A stretch of 20,070 nt of DNA. It comes from a virus. Under the pieces are notes generated by a model. That model was not told the origin of the DNA, did no database searches, and saw nothing but the letters and a program-made list of their open reading frames with translations. Location: positions 1 to 20,070 of the IMG/VR virus record IMGVR_UViG_3300027736_000303; one strand, written 5' to 3'. Of the stretch, positions 2,045-18,266 are shown one piece after another (positions within the stretch are counted from its first letter, which is position 1; every line of letters begins with the position of its first letter). A program made the position numbers and the translations under genes.

Positions 2045-2102
2045 ATTTATAATTTATTAATTCTTAACATATAACGAACTGATATTTTTTTTTGCATTTT
2101 CG

Positions 2103-2885: not shown

Positions 2886-4820
2886 TTATCCTAAAGTTGC
2901 ATTTTGAACTATCCCTCTGTTTAATGATTGTTGACTTGTTACATCTCCACCTACTACAAATGCTTTTAAAGGTTGTGTTTCTTTATTTAATCCTATACTT
3001 TCTGCTATTTGATTTGCTCCACTTGGCCCTACTACGTTAAAACTTGGTGCTGGTGGTACTGCTCCTCCTCCTCCACCTCCACCGGCTGCTCCTCCACCAC
3101 CACCTCCACCGCCTGAAAGTAATGCTTTTGCTCTTGCAATATTAGCCAAAATTGTAGCCGTACCAGTAGCATAAAATGCTATTTTAGTTGCTAAATATAC
3201 TGCTGGTGCTGCTGGTCCGGGTGCTCCAGTTGCTGCACCAGCTGCACTTTGTTCTGTTCCTTGCATCATTTTTGAAAATGCGACTGCACTATCTACACCT
3301 ATTTGAACTAAAGCTAGTGCTTTCATAGCTGCTTGACCAGCTTTGCCTTTTGCTAATCCAGTCGCTTGTATTGAAGATAATAATTCCTCTCCACTCTTTG
3401 CTATACTTCCTACTGCTTCTGTTGTAGCTTGGAATGATTGTATTTTTCGTTGTCTTTCCTCTTCCTCTCTTTTTTCTCTTTCTGATACACTATCGTAGTA
3501 TATTTGAGCAAGTGCTAATTCTTGTGCTCTTTGTCTTTCTAACTCTTCCTCTTTAAATTTAACATCGTTAGCTGCTTTATTTTCAAGTCCAGTTGTGTCT
3601 ATTGCATCTGGTATTACTTCCTCTTCTCTTAATTTTTTATTATATTCGTCTGTTAGTTTTTTTAAGTTTTCTAATTTTTCGTGCTCTGATAAAACTTCGT
3701 CTTTTTTATGTTGTTTGCCTTTTTCTGCATCCTCAGCATCCTGCTTATTTTTACTAACTCTATAACCGTCTCTTTCATTTGTTAATTCACGAATAGAATC
3801 TTGAGTAGCTTTTAAAGTTGCTGCCCCTTCTGCTTTAGTTTTTTCTGGGTCAAAAGCTAATTTAGTAATATAGTCAGTAGCTTTTGAGGCAAAATTCTCA
3901 TCTATCTTTCCTTTGATTTCAATGCCGGGGATTTTATTAGCTAAATCAATTATTTTATTAATTGCAGTTGCAGCAGTTTCAAATAATATTCTTTGCGGAA
4001 TACTTACAAAGTCTATAAAAGATTTTAACCTTTCGTAATTTCTTTGAGCAGCCTCTGCTTCTAGTTTATTAGTTAATTGTAATCCTTTTACTCTGCTAAT
4101 ATTTGCATCAATAGTCGCTTGAGTTGCTTTTATTTTAATATCTAAAATTTGCTGCTCACTTTTGCCTTGTAATTTTAAGGTATTGTCCATCGACTTTGCA
4201 GACTTTAAATTTTCATTTGCTGTCTGTACATTTTGTTCTGCTAATTGGTTTAACTTTTTTTGTTCATTTGAAACTCCATTAACCGCCTCTTTAATATCAT
4301 CCCAATAAGCATATAAAGCACCAGCAGCAATTACTAATAAACCTATTCCAGTAGCACCTATTGCATTTTTAATTCCAGCAAAAACACTTTTAGCAACTGC
4401 ACCTAATTGTTGAAAGCTATCTCTTGCCTCTCCTAATCCTTGCAGACCTTGTGCCAAAGCCATAGCACTCTGAACTTGTAAAAGTTGCTCTTGTAATTTT
4501 TTACTCTCAACTCCAGCTAAACCTAAAGCACCTTGGTAAGCAGCAAAGCCACTCGCCACACCAGTAAGTGATGCACTTAATGCTTTAAACTTTGCATCTG
4601 GATTAAATGCATCGGTTAAGTTTTTTGCATCGCCTATACGGTCTTTTAGTTCTGCTGCTCTTTTAGCTGCCTCAACTGCTTCTCTTGAAGTTGCACCAAA
4701 TTTATCAGCCAAAGTTTGTACATCTGCTTGTGCTTCTCTTAATTGGCTTTTTAAACTACCTAAAGACTTGTCTGCTTGTTGAGCATTTACGTTTAAATTA
4801 ATATCTATTTCTTGTGCCAT
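2886..4820 (-). CDS. Tail tape measure protein
   Basis: A 644-residue protein with the usual marks of a tape measure. There is an N-terminal coiled-coil region with Gln/Ala/Lys repeats (residues ~12-65), a hydrophobic segment at ~154-173 (NAIGATGIGLLVIAAGALYA) able to span a membrane, long charged helices (~180-260 and ~360-470, with many Glu/Lys/Arg), a second Ala-rich hydrophobic stretch (~500-565) and a Gly-rich low-complexity run (~568-587). In siphoviruses this protein sets tail length; at about 1.5 Angstrom per residue it would fit a tail of roughly 100 nm or less. It follows the tail proteins and precedes the head protease, an unusual position. Its start overlaps the preceding 50-aa ORF by 16 bp. 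Confidence 0.85.
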   Translation of the reverse strand: MAQEIDINLNVNAQQADKSLGSLKSQLREAQADVQTLADKFGATSREAVEAAKRAAELKDRIGDAKNLTDAFNPDAKFKALSASLTGVASGFAAYQGALGLAGVESKKLQEQLLQVQSAMALAQGLQGLGEARDSFQQLGAVAKSVFAGIKNAIGATGIGLLVIAAGALYAYWDDIKEAVNGVSNEQKKLNQLAEQNVQTANENLKSAKSMDNTLKLQGKSEQQILDIKIKATQATIDANISRVKGLQLTNKLEAEAAQRNYERLKSFIDFVSIPQRILFETAATAINKIIDLANKIPGIEIKGKIDENFASKATDYITKLAFDPEKTKAEGAATLKATQDSIRELTNERDGYRVSKNKQDAEDAEKGKQHKKDEVLSEHEKLENLKKLTDEYNKKLREEEVIPDAIDTTGLENKAANDVKFKEEELERQRAQELALAQIYYDSVSEREKREEEERQRKIQSFQATTEAVGSIAKSGEELLSSIQATGLAKGKAGQAAMKALALVQIGVDSAVAFSKMMQGTEQSAAGAATGAPGPAAPAVYLATKIAFYATGTATILANIARAKALLSGGGGGGGGAAGGGGGGGAVPPAPSFNVVGPSGANQIAESIGLNKETQPLKAFVVGGDVTSQQSLNRGIVQNATLG

Positions 4821-8667: not shown

Positions 8668-9216
8668 TTATTTTATATTTGATTTTATTATTAAATCTAC
8701 AGTTGATTTCACATCCAGAGCAAATGCCTCTGCTATTTCTTTTGGCATTAATTTTATATTCTCTTCTATAGCATCTTTTAAAAAGTAACTTGGCTTTATA
8801 CCTTGATGGTAAACTGACTCTCTTACTGCATACGGACTTAATCCTCTTTTGTTACTCCACTCTACAAAATGCTTTACACTTGGCTTAGTTCCCTCTTTAA
8901 AACTGTACGGACTATTTCCTCCATTTTGCTTCCACATCTTACCCTTGTTGTTTGTTCTCTTAAAGGTGCTTGTCATCTTTCTTACTCCTCCTACTCCTCT
9001 GACTCCCTTATCTACAAATCCTCCATAGTCTGACATTCCTATATTCAAACTTAAAGACCTAGGCATAAACTTTACTCCGTTATTAACTACACTTTTTTCA
9101 AGTGTACCAGTATCGACTTTCTTTTTGTCTTTTAAGTTCTGCTTTGCATCTGCTACAACCTTATCTCCAAAGGCATTCATAGCATCTACTAAATGTTCAA
9201 ATTTTATATTTAGCAT
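8668..9216 (-). CDS. HK97 gp10-like head-tail connector / tail completion protein
   Basis: A 182-residue basic protein with the outline of the HK97 gp10-like family. It has an N-terminal helix, VDTGTLEKSV at ~39-48 (the family commonly shows a DTG-x-L-x-x-S turn), then LNIGMSDYGGFVDKGVRG at ~57-74 (Y..FVD.G, again typical), and a C-terminal helix. In HK97-type phages this protein sits at the head-tail joint. The segment at ~75-135, rich in Lys/Asn/Gly, is longer than in short family members. The start overlaps the preceding gene by 7 bp, and the stop is 1 base before the next start. The assignment relies on these two motifs plus position. Confidence 0.75.
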   Translation of the reverse strand: MLNIKFEHLVDAMNAFGDKVVADAKQNLKDKKKVDTGTLEKSVVNNGVKFMPRSLSLNIGMSDYGGFVDKGVRGVGGVRKMTSTFKRTNNKGKMWKQNGGNSPYSFKEGTKPSVKHFVEWSNKRGLSPYAVRESVYHQGIKPSYFLKDAIEENIKLMPKEIAEAFALDVKSTVDLIIKSNIK

Positions 9217-9680
9217 TTAGATATATCATTAGGTACATTTATCGTTATATCTGTTTGATATCCGGTTAACATATTCTCCATCTCCTTATCTATTACATCG
9301 CTATCTGGATTACCTTCTAACTCCCATCCGTCTTTGTATATTGTAGACTGCTTTAAACGGCTCAATAAACGATTAATAACATAGAGTTGGTTAGATAGTA
9401 TATACATAGTATTATCGTTCCCATAAACGCCTATTTCAGCTTCCTTTGATATGTTAACTATATCTAAGTTAATTACTGTTAAATTAAACGACAAAGTATT
9501 TTCGTTATGTCTTATTGAATTTAGCATTATATGGCTCAAAGGAAATATAGTATTTTTAGCCAAATCGATTTCGGTTAGTCTTCCTACTGTTACTTTGTTT
9601 ACAAATGGATTGCTACTTAATTCCTCGTTTAAAGAATCAATAATATTGTACAATGCCTCTACTCCTTTTTTATCGTCCAT
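9210..9680 (-). CDS. Tail terminator-like protein, 156 aa
   Basis: A 156-residue alpha/beta protein. It contains KVTVGRLTEIDLAKNTIFPL (~29-48), HIMLNSIRHNENTLSFNLTV (~50-69) and a later helix YILSNQLYVINRLLSRL (~92-108). This alternation of strands around a central helix fits small tail terminator or minor tail proteins that cap the tail tube, and its place between the assembly chaperones and the gp10-like protein agrees. No diagnostic motif is visible, so this is contextual. Its ATG (9680) lies 11 bp inside the end of the frameshift-extension ORF. Confidence 0.55.
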   Translation of the reverse strand: MDDKKGVEALYNIIDSLNEELSSNPFVNKVTVGRLTEIDLAKNTIFPLSHIMLNSIRHNENTLSFNLTVINLDIVNISKEAEIGVYGNDNTMYILSNQLYVINRLLSRLKQSTIYKDGWELEGNPDSDVIDKEMENMLTGYQTDITINVPNDISKC

Positions 9681-9939
9681 AACGTTTGTTTATTTTTTCT
9701 AATTGCTTTGCTCTCAACTCTGCCTTATCTAACTTATAAGATAGAAACTTTAGACACAAGTGCATATTTAATTTTGTGACTTTCTCAATTCTTGTAACGT
9801 CGTTTTTAGCGAGCTCAGCGAGGCTAGCAAACCATCCCCATTCTTTAGAAAATTGGCTTTCTGTCGAGTACTCATCTTGCTCATTTCCTGCTCCAAAGAG
9901 CAAAGGGTAGATGTCACCAAATCCAAGCCTAAATTCCAA
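9670..9939 (-). CDS. -1 frameshift extension of the tail assembly chaperone (gpGT-like C-terminal part)
   Basis: An 89-codon frame that overlaps the 3' part of the 221-aa gene by 172 bp in the -1 frame. It has no credible start of its own: the first codon is TTG inside the T-run, and a TAG in the same frame lies just upstream (9951-9949). A -1 slip at the T9 tract would join residues 1-165 of the upstream frame to these 89 residues, giving ~254 aa. The encoded sequence looks like genuine protein: aromatic and acidic FGDIYPLLFGAG, then FSKEWGWFASLAELAKN, then a helical VTKLNMHLCLKFLSY and a charged tail. Lambda gpG/gpGT and many other tailed phages make tail chaperones this way, the longer form recruiting tape measure and tube subunits. 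Confidence 0.8.
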   Translation of the reverse strand: MEFRLGFGDIYPLLFGAGNEQDEYSTESQFSKEWGWFASLAELAKNDVTRIEKVTKLNMHLCLKFLSYKLDKAELRAKQLEKINKRYGR

Positions 9940-10433
9940 AAAAAAACCCTAGCACCCAATACAATATTTATAGGCATATCTTTTAGTATCTCGTGGTACT
10001 TGTCTCCCTCGTACTTCTCTACTAGATATTTTCCGTCTTTGCCTCTTCCTATTACTGGTCTATATAATACTCCCATAGCAGTAACAATATCCTCTAGGTT
10101 GTCTATGTTATTATTCAAGTCTAGAAATTCTCCGAATGATAAGTTATCTAATTTAGGAATAAACCCAAACTCAATACCTCCTAGTTTAAAACTTTCAATA
10201 TGCAAAGTATCTCCTGATAATAAATCTACTAATATCTTTACTACTTTGTTTGCCGAGTCAGCATCTATTTGTTTGGCTTGGTCCTCTGTTATCTCGCAGA
10301 ATATCTCAAGCATTTTTAAACCTAGATATGTCTCTTGATTTTTTTGGCTCTTGCTATATTCAAACTCTTTCAAATACCTTTGGTACTTGCTTAAACTAAT
10401 CTCCTCTAGTGTGCTTGGTACTATTAATTTCAT
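9768..10433 (-). CDS. Tail assembly chaperone, short (zero-frame) form, gpG-like
   Basis: A 221-residue, mostly helical acidic protein starting MKLIVPSTLEEISLSKYQRY, between TerL and the tail genes. Residues 1-165 would be shared with the frameshifted long form; 166-221 (from WNLGLDL to LRKSQN) are unique to the short form. Those last 56 residues also look like real protein (helical, NGDGLLASLSSLKTTLQEL), arguing that both frames are used. The role would be chaperoning the tape measure during tail assembly, with the product absent from the finished virion. The call rests on the overlapping-frame layout and slippery T9; primary sequence alone would not identify it. The leader carries AAACGTTATATAG before ATG. 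Confidence 0.75.
   Translation of the reverse strand: MKLIVPSTLEEISLSKYQRYLKEFEYSKSQKNQETYLGLKMLEIFCEITEDQAKQIDADSANKVVKILVDLLSGDTLHIESFKLGGIEFGFIPKLDNLSFGEFLDLNNNIDNLEDIVTAMGVLYRPVIGRGKDGKYLVEKYEGDKYHEILKDMPINIVLGARVFFWNLGLDLVTSTLCSLEQEMSKMSTRQKANFLKNGDGLLASLSSLKTTLQELRKSQN
9936..9951 (-). promoter_or_regulatory. Slippery site for programmed -1 frameshift
   Basis: Minus strand reads TAG-GG-TTTTTTTTT-GG. In the zero frame this is GTT TTT TTT TGG (VFFW). T TTT TTT is a valid X XXY YYZ heptamer ending on a zero-frame codon boundary. The next codon after a -1 slip is TTG at 9939. The -1 frame is closed by TAG at 9951-9949, so it opens exactly at the T-run. RNA polymerase slippage on nine T residues could give the same products. 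No clear downstream pseudoknot was seen by eye. Confidence 0.8.
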
Positions 10434-10469: not shown

Positions 10470-11666
10470 TTATTTTATTGCGTATGTGCCTCTGTTTTTT
10501 AATTCTTTGATTGCTTGGTAAGATAATGCTAAACTAATTACACTATCGTCGTGTACTCCTTGTGGTGCAGAATATTGTACGTTACGTGTTGTTTGGTTGT
10601 ATATGTACGTGAATGCTTCTAACTCATCTATTAGCCAACTGATATTTAATATCTGTATGTCTTTCTGCTCAAACAATACTGCCAAGTCTTCAATCATTAT
10701 AGGCTTGGTCTTTGTGGTTGTTACAAATGGATATACTCTTTTACCGCATATCTTTTTTAGCATCTCATAAAATACATCTCCTTGGTTGTTTACCTCTACA
10801 TATACTTTTGCATTGTACTCGTTTATCTTTACTGCTACCTTCTCTATAATTCTAGTCCACTCATCGTGTCGCCATCTTTCGCAATATACTATTTGCTTGT
10901 GTTCGTTTATAATAGTTAGTACAGTGTAGTCATCTGCTCGTCCAATATCTAATCCTCCATAGTATACATTTGAGTTTGTTGGCTCTCCAATACATTCTCT
11001 TACATTTGCAAATAGTCCACTTGAATTATCTAGAAATTCTGCTAGGTATTCCTGTCTAAATATGTGGCTAGGTAAACTTCTTTTTCGCTCTTCTAAATCT
11101 AACTCATTTATGAATGGAGTATCATAAGATGTAAAGTGAAAGTACTTATATCGATTGTCATAATTTGGCTGAAGTGATAGAGTGTGAAAATGATTTTTGC
11201 CTTTGGGTGTAGATATGAATATAACCTTTTTACCTTTGACTAGTACTGTAGCAGAAAGCACCTCACTCCATAACTCCTCTCTAGTAAATGCAACCTCGTC
11301 AATTATTAAATAGTCAAATGTATTACCCCTAATATTATCTGGTCTTTCTCCAGAGAAAAAAGATATAGTACTTCCAAATCCTTTAACTGTTAACTCACTT
11401 TGGTTAAAATCAAAAAAGCCACTTGTCCTAGTGGCCTTCTCTAATTCGCTAAATACTTTTTTACCTTGCTTATATACTGGAGTTACCCAAGCAATATTAC
11501 ATCCTCTGTTATTAATTGCCCAATATAACATTTGGTTTATAGCCAACATCGTTTTACCAAACTGCCTACCGATATTTAAGACATAGTATTTGTATGGCTC
11601 ATTATTAATTGAATCGTGTATTTGCCTCTGGTTTATATGTGGCTTATATCCTTTTATGCTACTCAT
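10470..11666 (-). CDS. terL: Terminase large subunit
   Basis: The ATP-driven DNA packaging motor and headful/cos nuclease. From the ATG at 11666 the product is 398 aa; a TTG three codons upstream is less likely because the ATG forms a tight 8-bp overlap (ATGAGTAG) with the small subunit stop. ATPase domain: Walker A GRQFGKT at 33-39, Walker B YLIIDE at 119-124 and the coupling motif STP at 152-154. Nuclease domain (RNase H fold): GLDIGRADDYT with Asp240, VYVEVNNQGD with Glu291/Asp297, and GVHDDSVISLAL with Asp373/Asp374. All expected motifs are intact. Length is at the short end for the family but complete. It forms an operon with the small subunit. Confidence 0.96.
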   Translation of the reverse strand: MSSIKGYKPHINQRQIHDSINNEPYKYYVLNIGRQFGKTMLAINQMLYWAINNRGCNIAWVTPVYKQGKKVFSELEKATRTSGFFDFNQSELTVKGFGSTISFFSGERPDNIRGNTFDYLIIDEVAFTREELWSEVLSATVLVKGKKVIFISTPKGKNHFHTLSLQPNYDNRYKYFHFTSYDTPFINELDLEERKRSLPSHIFRQEYLAEFLDNSSGLFANVRECIGEPTNSNVYYGGLDIGRADDYTVLTIINEHKQIVYCERWRHDEWTRIIEKVAVKINEYNAKVYVEVNNQGDVFYEMLKKICGKRVYPFVTTTKTKPIMIEDLAVLFEQKDIQILNISWLIDELEAFTYIYNQTTRNVQYSAPQGVHDDSVISLALSYQAIKELKNRGTYAIK

Positions 11667-12063
11667 CAAAATCAAACTTGGTTACACTTACCTCGGTCTG
11701 TGTCTTCTCTACTAATCCGTTTAATCTTTGTGTTATACTTGGATTGTACATACCAGCCATACCTCCCTCAATCTGGTCTTGTCTTACAGCTTTTTTTACA
11801 CGTGAACAGATGGTTTGATAGTCTGTGTATCTTTGCTCAGTATTTGCAAAATATTGGCTTAAATTATCTATTATATTCTTATCTGCTAGGTAGCATTCGA
11901 AGCCTTCAATAGTGAGTGGTCTTTCTTTCTCTCTATATACATCTAGAGCATCTTTACCTACCCAATCCTTAACTAGGAATGGTTTGCTCTTTGTCTCTTT
12001 TTTGTACTCTTGAAAGTGTTGCCATAGTATCTCTGGTGTCTCTATGTATTTTGGTTTGCCCAT
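11659..12063 (-). CDS. terS: Terminase small subunit
   Basis: A 134-residue protein directly upstream of terL with an 8-bp overlap. It reads as the gp3-type small terminase (P22-like DNA packaging family): an N-terminal segment with PKYIETPEILWQHFQEYKKE, a central LTIEGFECYLADKNI helix-turn region (~50-64), a long helix with YQTICSRVKKAVRQDQIEGG and the typical AGMYNPSITQRLNGL near 103-117, which in this family links the oligomer core to the terL-binding tail. The C-terminus is acidic (FDFDE). The role is recognition of packaging sites on the concatemer and loading of the large subunit. Confidence 0.88.
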   Translation of the reverse strand: MGKPKYIETPEILWQHFQEYKKETKSKPFLVKDWVGKDALDVYREKERPLTIEGFECYLADKNIIDNLSQYFANTEQRYTDYQTICSRVKKAVRQDQIEGGMAGMYNPSITQRLNGLVEKTQTEVSVTKFDFDE

Positions 12064-14307: not shown

Positions 14308-14492
14308 ACTATTCTTTTTTTAATTTCTATTGCTACTTCGTTCCAGTAGTTTAACTCTTTTATCTCTCCTTTGTTTTTAGCGTTTTGAATAAGCCCATTT
14401 ATAACATCTTTTAAATATGGTAGTGAGTATTTACTCAATAGGTTATCGGCTCTTAAATCGCTTGTAAATTGCTCGTTTAAATCAAATTTCAT
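14304..14492 (-). CDS. Hypothetical protein, 62 aa
   Basis: A helical acidic/basic protein (MKFDLNEQFTSDLRADNLLS...) whose start lies 11 bp inside the end of the sigma-like gene, showing translational coupling. No motif recognised. The C-terminal NYWNEVAIEIKKRIV helix is amphipathic, so a small protein-binding or DNA-binding role is possible but unsupported. Confidence 0.65.
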   Translation of the reverse strand: MKFDLNEQFTSDLRADNLLSKYSLPYLKDVINGLIQNAKNKGEIKELNYWNEVAIEIKKRIV

Positions 14493-15021
14493 TTTTTATC
14501 TGTTGTTTAATTCGTTTAACTGTGTTTCTAATGCTCCAGTAACTTAATTTTGTCTCTTCGCTTAAATCTGTAATAGAGTAGCTTTCAACGAATATCTTTT
14601 GATAAATAAACTTTATATAACAAAGACTTGCTTTGTACTCTGTATGCTCATCTATTGAGTCTATTTCGTTGTTTAATTCTTTTACCCAATTACTAACCAA
14701 ATCTTTCTGGAAGTAAAACTTGTCCTCTGAATATTCGCTTGGCTCTTCTATTAAAATAACATCCTCTATGTTTACTAGTATTTTCTTTTTATTCTTTCTG
14801 TAATCATCTAGGTACATATTTTTTAAAGTAACGTATACAAAAAAGAAGTTTACCTCTTCTCCATCATACATCAAATCGTTATTTTTTATTTGACTATAAT
14901 TATAAATCTTAATATACATCTCTTGGACATAGTCCTCTGCGATGTCATCTGGGCAGCCAAATGATTTTACATATTTTAACCAAGTGGAATGCTTTAAATA
15001 GAGAACATCGAGTATATTCAT
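14482..15021 (-). CDS. Sigma-70 family (ECF-like) RNA polymerase sigma factor
   Basis: A 179-residue protein with the two-domain outline of a small sigma factor. Region 2: PDDIAEDYVQEMYIKIYN (24-41), matching the AEDLVQEvFlrl core-binding helix, followed by VYVTLKNMYLDDYRKNKKK (62-80), matching the -10 recognition helix. A charged linker follows. Region 4 is the C-terminal helix-turn-helix at ~148-178 (SITDLSEETKLSYWSIRNTV). It would bind host RNA polymerase and direct it to phage promoters, most simply the late block. It lies 1 base after the ATPase stop and overlaps the 62-aa gene. Divergent enough that a sigma-like transcription regulator without full promoter activity is possible. Confidence 0.75.
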   Translation of the reverse strand: MNILDVLYLKHSTWLKYVKSFGCPDDIAEDYVQEMYIKIYNYSQIKNNDLMYDGEEVNFFFVYVTLKNMYLDDYRKNKKKILVNIEDVILIEEPSEYSEDKFYFQKDLVSNWVKELNNEIDSIDEHTEYKASLCYIKFIYQKIFVESYSITDLSEETKLSYWSIRNTVKRIKQQIKNEI

Positions 15022-18229: not shown

Positions 18230-18266
18230 AAAAAAAAATCCCAACCTAATAAAAGACTGGGACTTT
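18230..18266 (-). terminator. Intrinsic terminator, minus strand
   Basis: In minus-strand RNA UCCCAGUC pairs with GGUUGGGA (two G-U pairs) around the loop UUUUAUUA, extended by AAAG pairing with the first U residues, followed by nine U. The G-U pairs exist only on the minus strand, and the U-run follows the stem in that direction. It ends the NinG-side transcripts and separates them from the replication block. Confidence 0.88.

Follow-up and report, generated by a model that had tools for sequence, protein, structure and literature searches.

The gene read from 10433 down to 9670 on the minus strand of the window, a complete IMG/VR record of 20,070 bp, is a genuine, deeply conserved recoded gene of a large group of Bacteroidota phages, and sequence comparison strongly supports programmed −1 recoding in which both C-termini are real. 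In the explanation that we propose, an obligate run of 9–10 T's would be the point at which one N-terminal domain receives either of two C-termini. A faithful U9 transcript would give the N domain with an overprinted tail of ~55 aa (221 aa in total), polymerase slippage on T9 would add one extra U and give the N domain with a C domain marked by a WGW motif (254 aa), and transcripts with one U too few or two too many would run into an immediate stop in the third frame; ribosomal −1 slippage on the contained U_UUU_UUU may contribute. By analogy with gpG/gpGT of phage lambda, the two forms would most likely serve as a short and a long chaperone of tail assembly, made in a fixed ratio. As a whole, T-run recoding by polymerase slippage in a tail-module gene encoding a chaperone pair is moderately probable. 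Its observed basis is the conserved −1 architecture, the dual coding, a run of at least nine in all codon phases, the lack of detectable stimulators, and the occurrence of continuous fusion homologues; that the polymerase does most of the slipping, that the products are chaperones, and that their ratio is set are inferred.

Frames and conservation of the T run

The coordinates were recomputed and agree with the preliminary description in the two frames, their overlap of 172 nt, the T9 tract at 9946–9938, the in-register T_TTT_TTT, and the fusion of 165 + 89 = 254 aa. The features of the locus are as follows.

9768–10433, minus strand: zero-frame product of 221 aa (ATG at 10433, stop at 9768; PHROG family phrog_32199), composed of the N domain (residues 1–165) and the putative overprinted 56-aa tail
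9938–9946, minus strand: T9 tract, the putative recoding site (all 265 distinct genes have T9 or T10)
9939–9945, minus strand: heptamer T_TTT_TTT, in register within T9, which a ribosomal −1 slip would use
9670–9939, minus strand: −1-frame extension of 89 aa with the conserved WGW domain, which would complete the 254-aa fusion
9768–9939, minus strand: dual-coded overlap of 172 nt, for which the 4-fold-site divergence of the −1 frame was determined
9929–9931, minus strand: TAG in the third (+1) frame just past the run, which would end U8 or U11 transcripts

From 9947 downward, the zero-frame codons over T9 are GTT TTT TTT TGG. The −1 frame (9670–9939) has no credible start, and its extension contains invariant F, F, F, W, and L columns among 69 sequences. 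The TAG at 9951–9949 does close the −1 frame, as had been pointed out, but two bases (GG) separate it from the run that it was said to precede immediately; nor is its closeness to the run, taken earlier as remarkable, a general feature, the −1 frame of the relatives opening 0–161 nt before the run. Two more 9-base A/T runs of the window (2085–2093 and 18230–18238) are apparently intergenic, lying between ORFs.

A first search returned 30 viral contigs, in which the run was kept in all 28 reaching the site; one contig (L020) breaks off right after it. The set was enlarged by profile and single-protein searches to 325 two-domain loci, 324 of which, analysed without any prior assumption of a T run, have their two domains in the −1 relation. 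Contigs fetched repeatedly were reduced by counting distinct genes (n = 265), 247 of which have T9 and 18 T10, and none a shorter or longer run, with an in-register T_TTT_TTT heptamer within every run. In 17 of the 18 T10 genes, the codon phase is shifted such that the −1 relation persists. The remaining one (L205, 944–983), the sole exception among the 325 loci, has both domains in one continuous frame and is either a naturally occurring indel allele or a misassembly. T runs of at least nine number 19 per 475 kb outside the gene in the same phages, and the run at the gene exceeds chance occurrence. A narrower scan of a genome collection gave three Flavobacteriaceae/Bacteroidetes MAG contigs. 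Two isolates, Nonlabens phages P12024L and P12024S, likewise have T9 and the −1 junction in their genomes; their proteins are ~25% identical to that of the window. Comparison with homologous phages, which the preliminary description had proposed as a check, thus finds the T run and both C-terminal frames conserved, and two products sharing the N domain, one of them with the C domain added by −1 recoding, are predicted from sequence at 324 of the 325 loci. At one further site of interest (L065, 4181–4932), T9 and both domains are kept and the N frame is broken by an in-frame stop at codon 58.

Two other explanations of the interrupted frame were rejected on the grounds of this conservation. Homopolymers are prone to error and continuous homologues exist, as would suit gene decay or an error made in sequencing or assembly; however, the same interruption is found in 324 of 325 loci, in many separate assemblies, and in the isolates P12024L and P12024S, and both frames are under constraint, so that we give this reading hardly any weight. 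Phase variation by DNA-polymerase slippage, in which the fusion would be switched 'off' in T9 genomes and 'on' in T10 genomes, would account for L205, where T10 brings both domains into one frame, but the 'on' state occurs in one of 265 distinct genes, the domains of the other 17 genes with T10 remain in the −1 relation, and the overlapping zero-frame tail is conserved, which makes such switching very improbable.

The two C-termini and continuous homologues

Past the run, the zero frame stays open for 53 codons on average, as compared with 19.7 under a null in which the −1-frame amino acids were fixed and synonymous codons redrawn, and in every one of 264 distinct genes the third frame meets a stop no more than two codons from the run. 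The 4-fold-site divergence of the −1 frame was 0.144 in the overlap, 0.232 past the overlap, and 0.346 in the N part. The openness of the zero frame above the null and the lowered synonymous divergence in the overlap together bear out the earlier impression that both C-terminal tails look like real protein. Moreover, the third positions of the zero frame near the run are freer than those of the −1 frame, a pattern that fits a constraint on the zero-frame amino acids, contrary to a pure nucleotide signal. Extra synonymous constraint (0.02–0.04) in the first 20 codons past the run fits dual coding and could mask a signal. The zero-frame tail (~55 aa) is thus best regarded as an overprinted second C-terminus that is itself selected. 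When the two halves of the fusion were folded separately with AF2, the N product (zero frame) was predicted to be mainly helical with confidence (pLDDT 87.5), and the C domain to be helical with moderate confidence (pLDDT 78).

Continuous counterparts are found in the proteins of the Flavobacterium phage 6H gp10 type (phrog_25418; Duneviridae), whose N and C domains are homologous to those of the fusion and colinear with it through the junction; unlike the gene of the window, they consist of one ORF of 289–304 aa without a T tract and are encoded upstream of the tape-measure gene. The 6H-type profile aligned with the fusion profile over 236 columns spanning the junction (hhalign E 1e-10, to be read as a pairwise profile value, as are all such E-values here), and its alignment with the zero-frame profile ended about at the junction. 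Because the 6H-type homologues align across the junction and the zero-frame profile only to it, the −1 fusion is the full-length, ancestral form of the protein, to which one lineage has added the overprinted zero-frame tail. Continuous homologues lacking the T run had been expected to reveal a sequencing error in the window; they do occur (6H-type phages, besides the T10 allele L205), but, given the conservation of the interruption, they are no sign of an error in the window.

In the deposited genome of phage 6H itself (NC_021867; L192, 10044–10927, minus strand), gp10 ends early, and its missing C domain was found in an unannotated overlapping frame, whereas in relatives with 98–99% identity (L336–L338) reading continues for 293 aa. 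The deposited 6H sequence therefore carries a frame interruption, error or real.

The counterpart genes of the Nonlabens isolates P12024L and P12024S (genes 40/41 and 38/39, respectively; phrog_32199) share T9 and the −1 junction with the window and differ from it in a zero-frame tail of only ~25 aa. Their records list the gene as two separate hypothetical proteins, an annotation that is now corrected in that the "two unrelated hypothetical proteins" would be one recoded gene.

Gene neighbourhood and predicted function

The neighbouring genes that bear on the function are listed below; the conserved gene order is TerL-X-Y-Neck1-p359-p877-p50-TMP, in which X is the recoded gene.

10470–11675, minus strand: terminase large subunit, immediately upstream of the recoded gene
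9210–9680, minus strand: next gene (Y), 156 aa, phrog_30964, with its ATG overlapping the fusion stop
8668–9216, minus strand: tail-completion/Neck1-like protein (phrog_5, E 3e-6)
2886–4820, minus strand: tape measure-like protein (phrog_24676, E 1.5e-10), 4.8 kb downstream of the recoded gene

Chaperone genes of the gpG/gpGT type usually lie between the genes for the major tail protein and the tape measure, and their products bind the tape measure and the tail tube protein and are absent from the virion. The frames had been described as lying where tail assembly chaperones belong, which does not hold for the window: the gene is located directly after the large terminase and five genes before the tape-measure gene, and not between the major tail protein and the tape measure, although the 6H-type homologue is nearer the tape-measure gene. 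Searches for chaperone families gave no match for any of 70 members in Pfam or PHROGs, nor for representatives in NCBIfam, and sequence and fold searches against PDB gave nothing credible. A named family was also sought by family searches and abandoned, as these returned only unnamed PHROGs and weak Pfam hits resembling chance. In BFVD, there are many unnamed phage homologues, some of which (234–258 aa) match both halves of the fusion, and the best fold match annotated as a chaperone is a weak one (E 0.042).

On these grounds, the recoding could be real and the product something other than a tail chaperone, e.g., a head–tail joining or packaging-associated protein. Such a function is consistent with the order TerL-X-Y-Neck1, which places the gene after the terminase and before the Neck1-like gene, and with the lack of a chaperone family match; against it stand the continuous homologue of Flavobacterium phage 6H, which lies upstream of the gene for the tape measure, the short/long pair with a C-terminal extension, which is a hallmark of tail chaperones, and the weak chaperone-annotated fold match, and we consider it a possible but lesser alternative. 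A tail-assembly chaperone is our best guess, held with moderate confidence, as is suggested by a recoded short/long pair in the tail module. The chaperone label given earlier is accordingly plausible in view of the tail module, the recoded N/N+C pair, the 6H-type context, and the one weak fold match, is weakened by the atypical position and the missing family match, and is not for transfer without experiment.

Like lambda gpG/gpGT, the gene would encode an N-domain protein and a −1 fusion with an extra C domain in the tail region of a long-tailed phage. It differs in its poly-T site of at least nine, in the dual-coded zero-frame tail of ~55 aa, in its location after the terminase, and in having no detectable sequence homology to chaperone families. 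In this sense, the gene is a variant of the gpG/gpGT kind.

The start of Y over the fusion stop (9670–9680 in the window) recurs in 213 of 253 genes tested. This overlap suggests that translation of Y is coupled to the −1 frame, which is probably the case, and hints that Y may need the recoding in order to be translated. The more elaborate proposal that a Bacteroidota phage lineage sets the short/long ratio by polymerase slippage on T9/T10 and not by ribosomal frameshifting, with three C-termini (the dual-coded tail, the fusion, and the immediate stop) and with the next gene coupled to the fusion, is made tentatively, at slightly less than an even chance.

Polymerase and ribosome at the T run

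The run occurs in four codon arrangements, xTT TTT TTT Txx in most genes and otherwise TTT TTT TTT Cxx, xxT TTT TTT TTT Cxx, or GCT TTT TTT TTC, and is at least nine long in all of them; on a tree of 106 clusters, the arrangement has changed nine times or more. A ribosomal heptamer needs seven T's, whereas all 265 distinct genes have at least nine, and sites of seven or eight T's, as well as TTC as the second slip codon, are absent among them. The conserved A/T run of at least nine at the junction, as expected for transcriptional slippage, is thus found in 265 of 265 distinct genes. Of the stimulators of ribosomal frameshifting, neither a structure nor a Shine–Dalgarno (SD)-like site was detected: pseudoknot-free folding gave no signal of RNA structure downstream or upstream of the run (mean z ~0), and upstream SD-like sites are rarer than at control positions (6/77 versus 14%). 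The synonymous divergence just upstream of the run is likewise not reduced (0.36). The run was also considered as an intrinsic terminator, and this was dismissed with no upstream hairpin signal.

In bacteria, slippage is usually selected against at 9 A/T (PMC1088944), 9 A or T give efficient slippage in vivo (PMC5009743), programmed transcriptional realignment uses Tn with n > 8 (PMC3711429), and ribosomes slip poorly on U_UUU_UUU in E. coli (PMC5009743). The length of at least nine kept through phase changes, the absence of detectable stimulators, and this literature on 9 A/T lead us to prefer polymerase slippage, and the comparative data favour it over the ribosomal heptamer as the main mechanism. 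It is nevertheless something that we infer, because the heptamer is always present, the folding was pseudoknot-free, and the flanking residues supply some of the T's, part of the T count being tied to residues that both frames favour (V/L/I-F-F-Y/W). Classical programmed −1 ribosomal frameshifting on U_UUU_UUU, with a gpG/gpGT-type pair as the product and T9 as merely a long heptamer, would agree with the in-register heptamer in every gene and with the rule for chaperone genes in long-tailed phages (PMC5009743), but it has against it the survival of the run length through phase changes, the missing 7- and 8-T sites and TTC codons, the lack of a structure or SD-like stimulator, and the weakness of U_UUU_UUU in E. 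coli, and we hold it to be possible but less likely. The preliminary description had mentioned in an aside that polymerase slippage could also act; judging from the conservation of run length, this is probably right, and slippage now looks the better mechanism of the two.

Known transcriptional-slippage genes, i.e., Thermus dnaX (9 A/T run), Shigella mxiE (Tn, n > 8), and IS transposases, resemble the gene in the unbroken run of 9–10 A/T at the junction near a stop in another frame, stimulators being unneeded; here, in contrast, the gene belongs to a phage tail module and slippage is deduced from sequence. No tail chaperone made by transcriptional slippage was found in the literature searched, which excluded most subscription journals. 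Were the short/long ratio set by polymerase slippage, these phages would rely on the transcription machinery and not on ribosomes in assembling their tails, a different answer to the problem that lambda handles by gpG/gpGT. The alignment of 265 distinct genes, which are deeply diverged and place the run in several codon phases, amounts to a strong natural experiment on the required length of the T run.

As to which polymerase transcribes the tail genes, sigma-like proteins are of relevance: the protein encoded at 14482–15021 of the window is sigma-factor-like by eye, with no Pfam match, and P12024L and P12024S have an annotated Sigma-70 region 2 protein upstream of the terminase.
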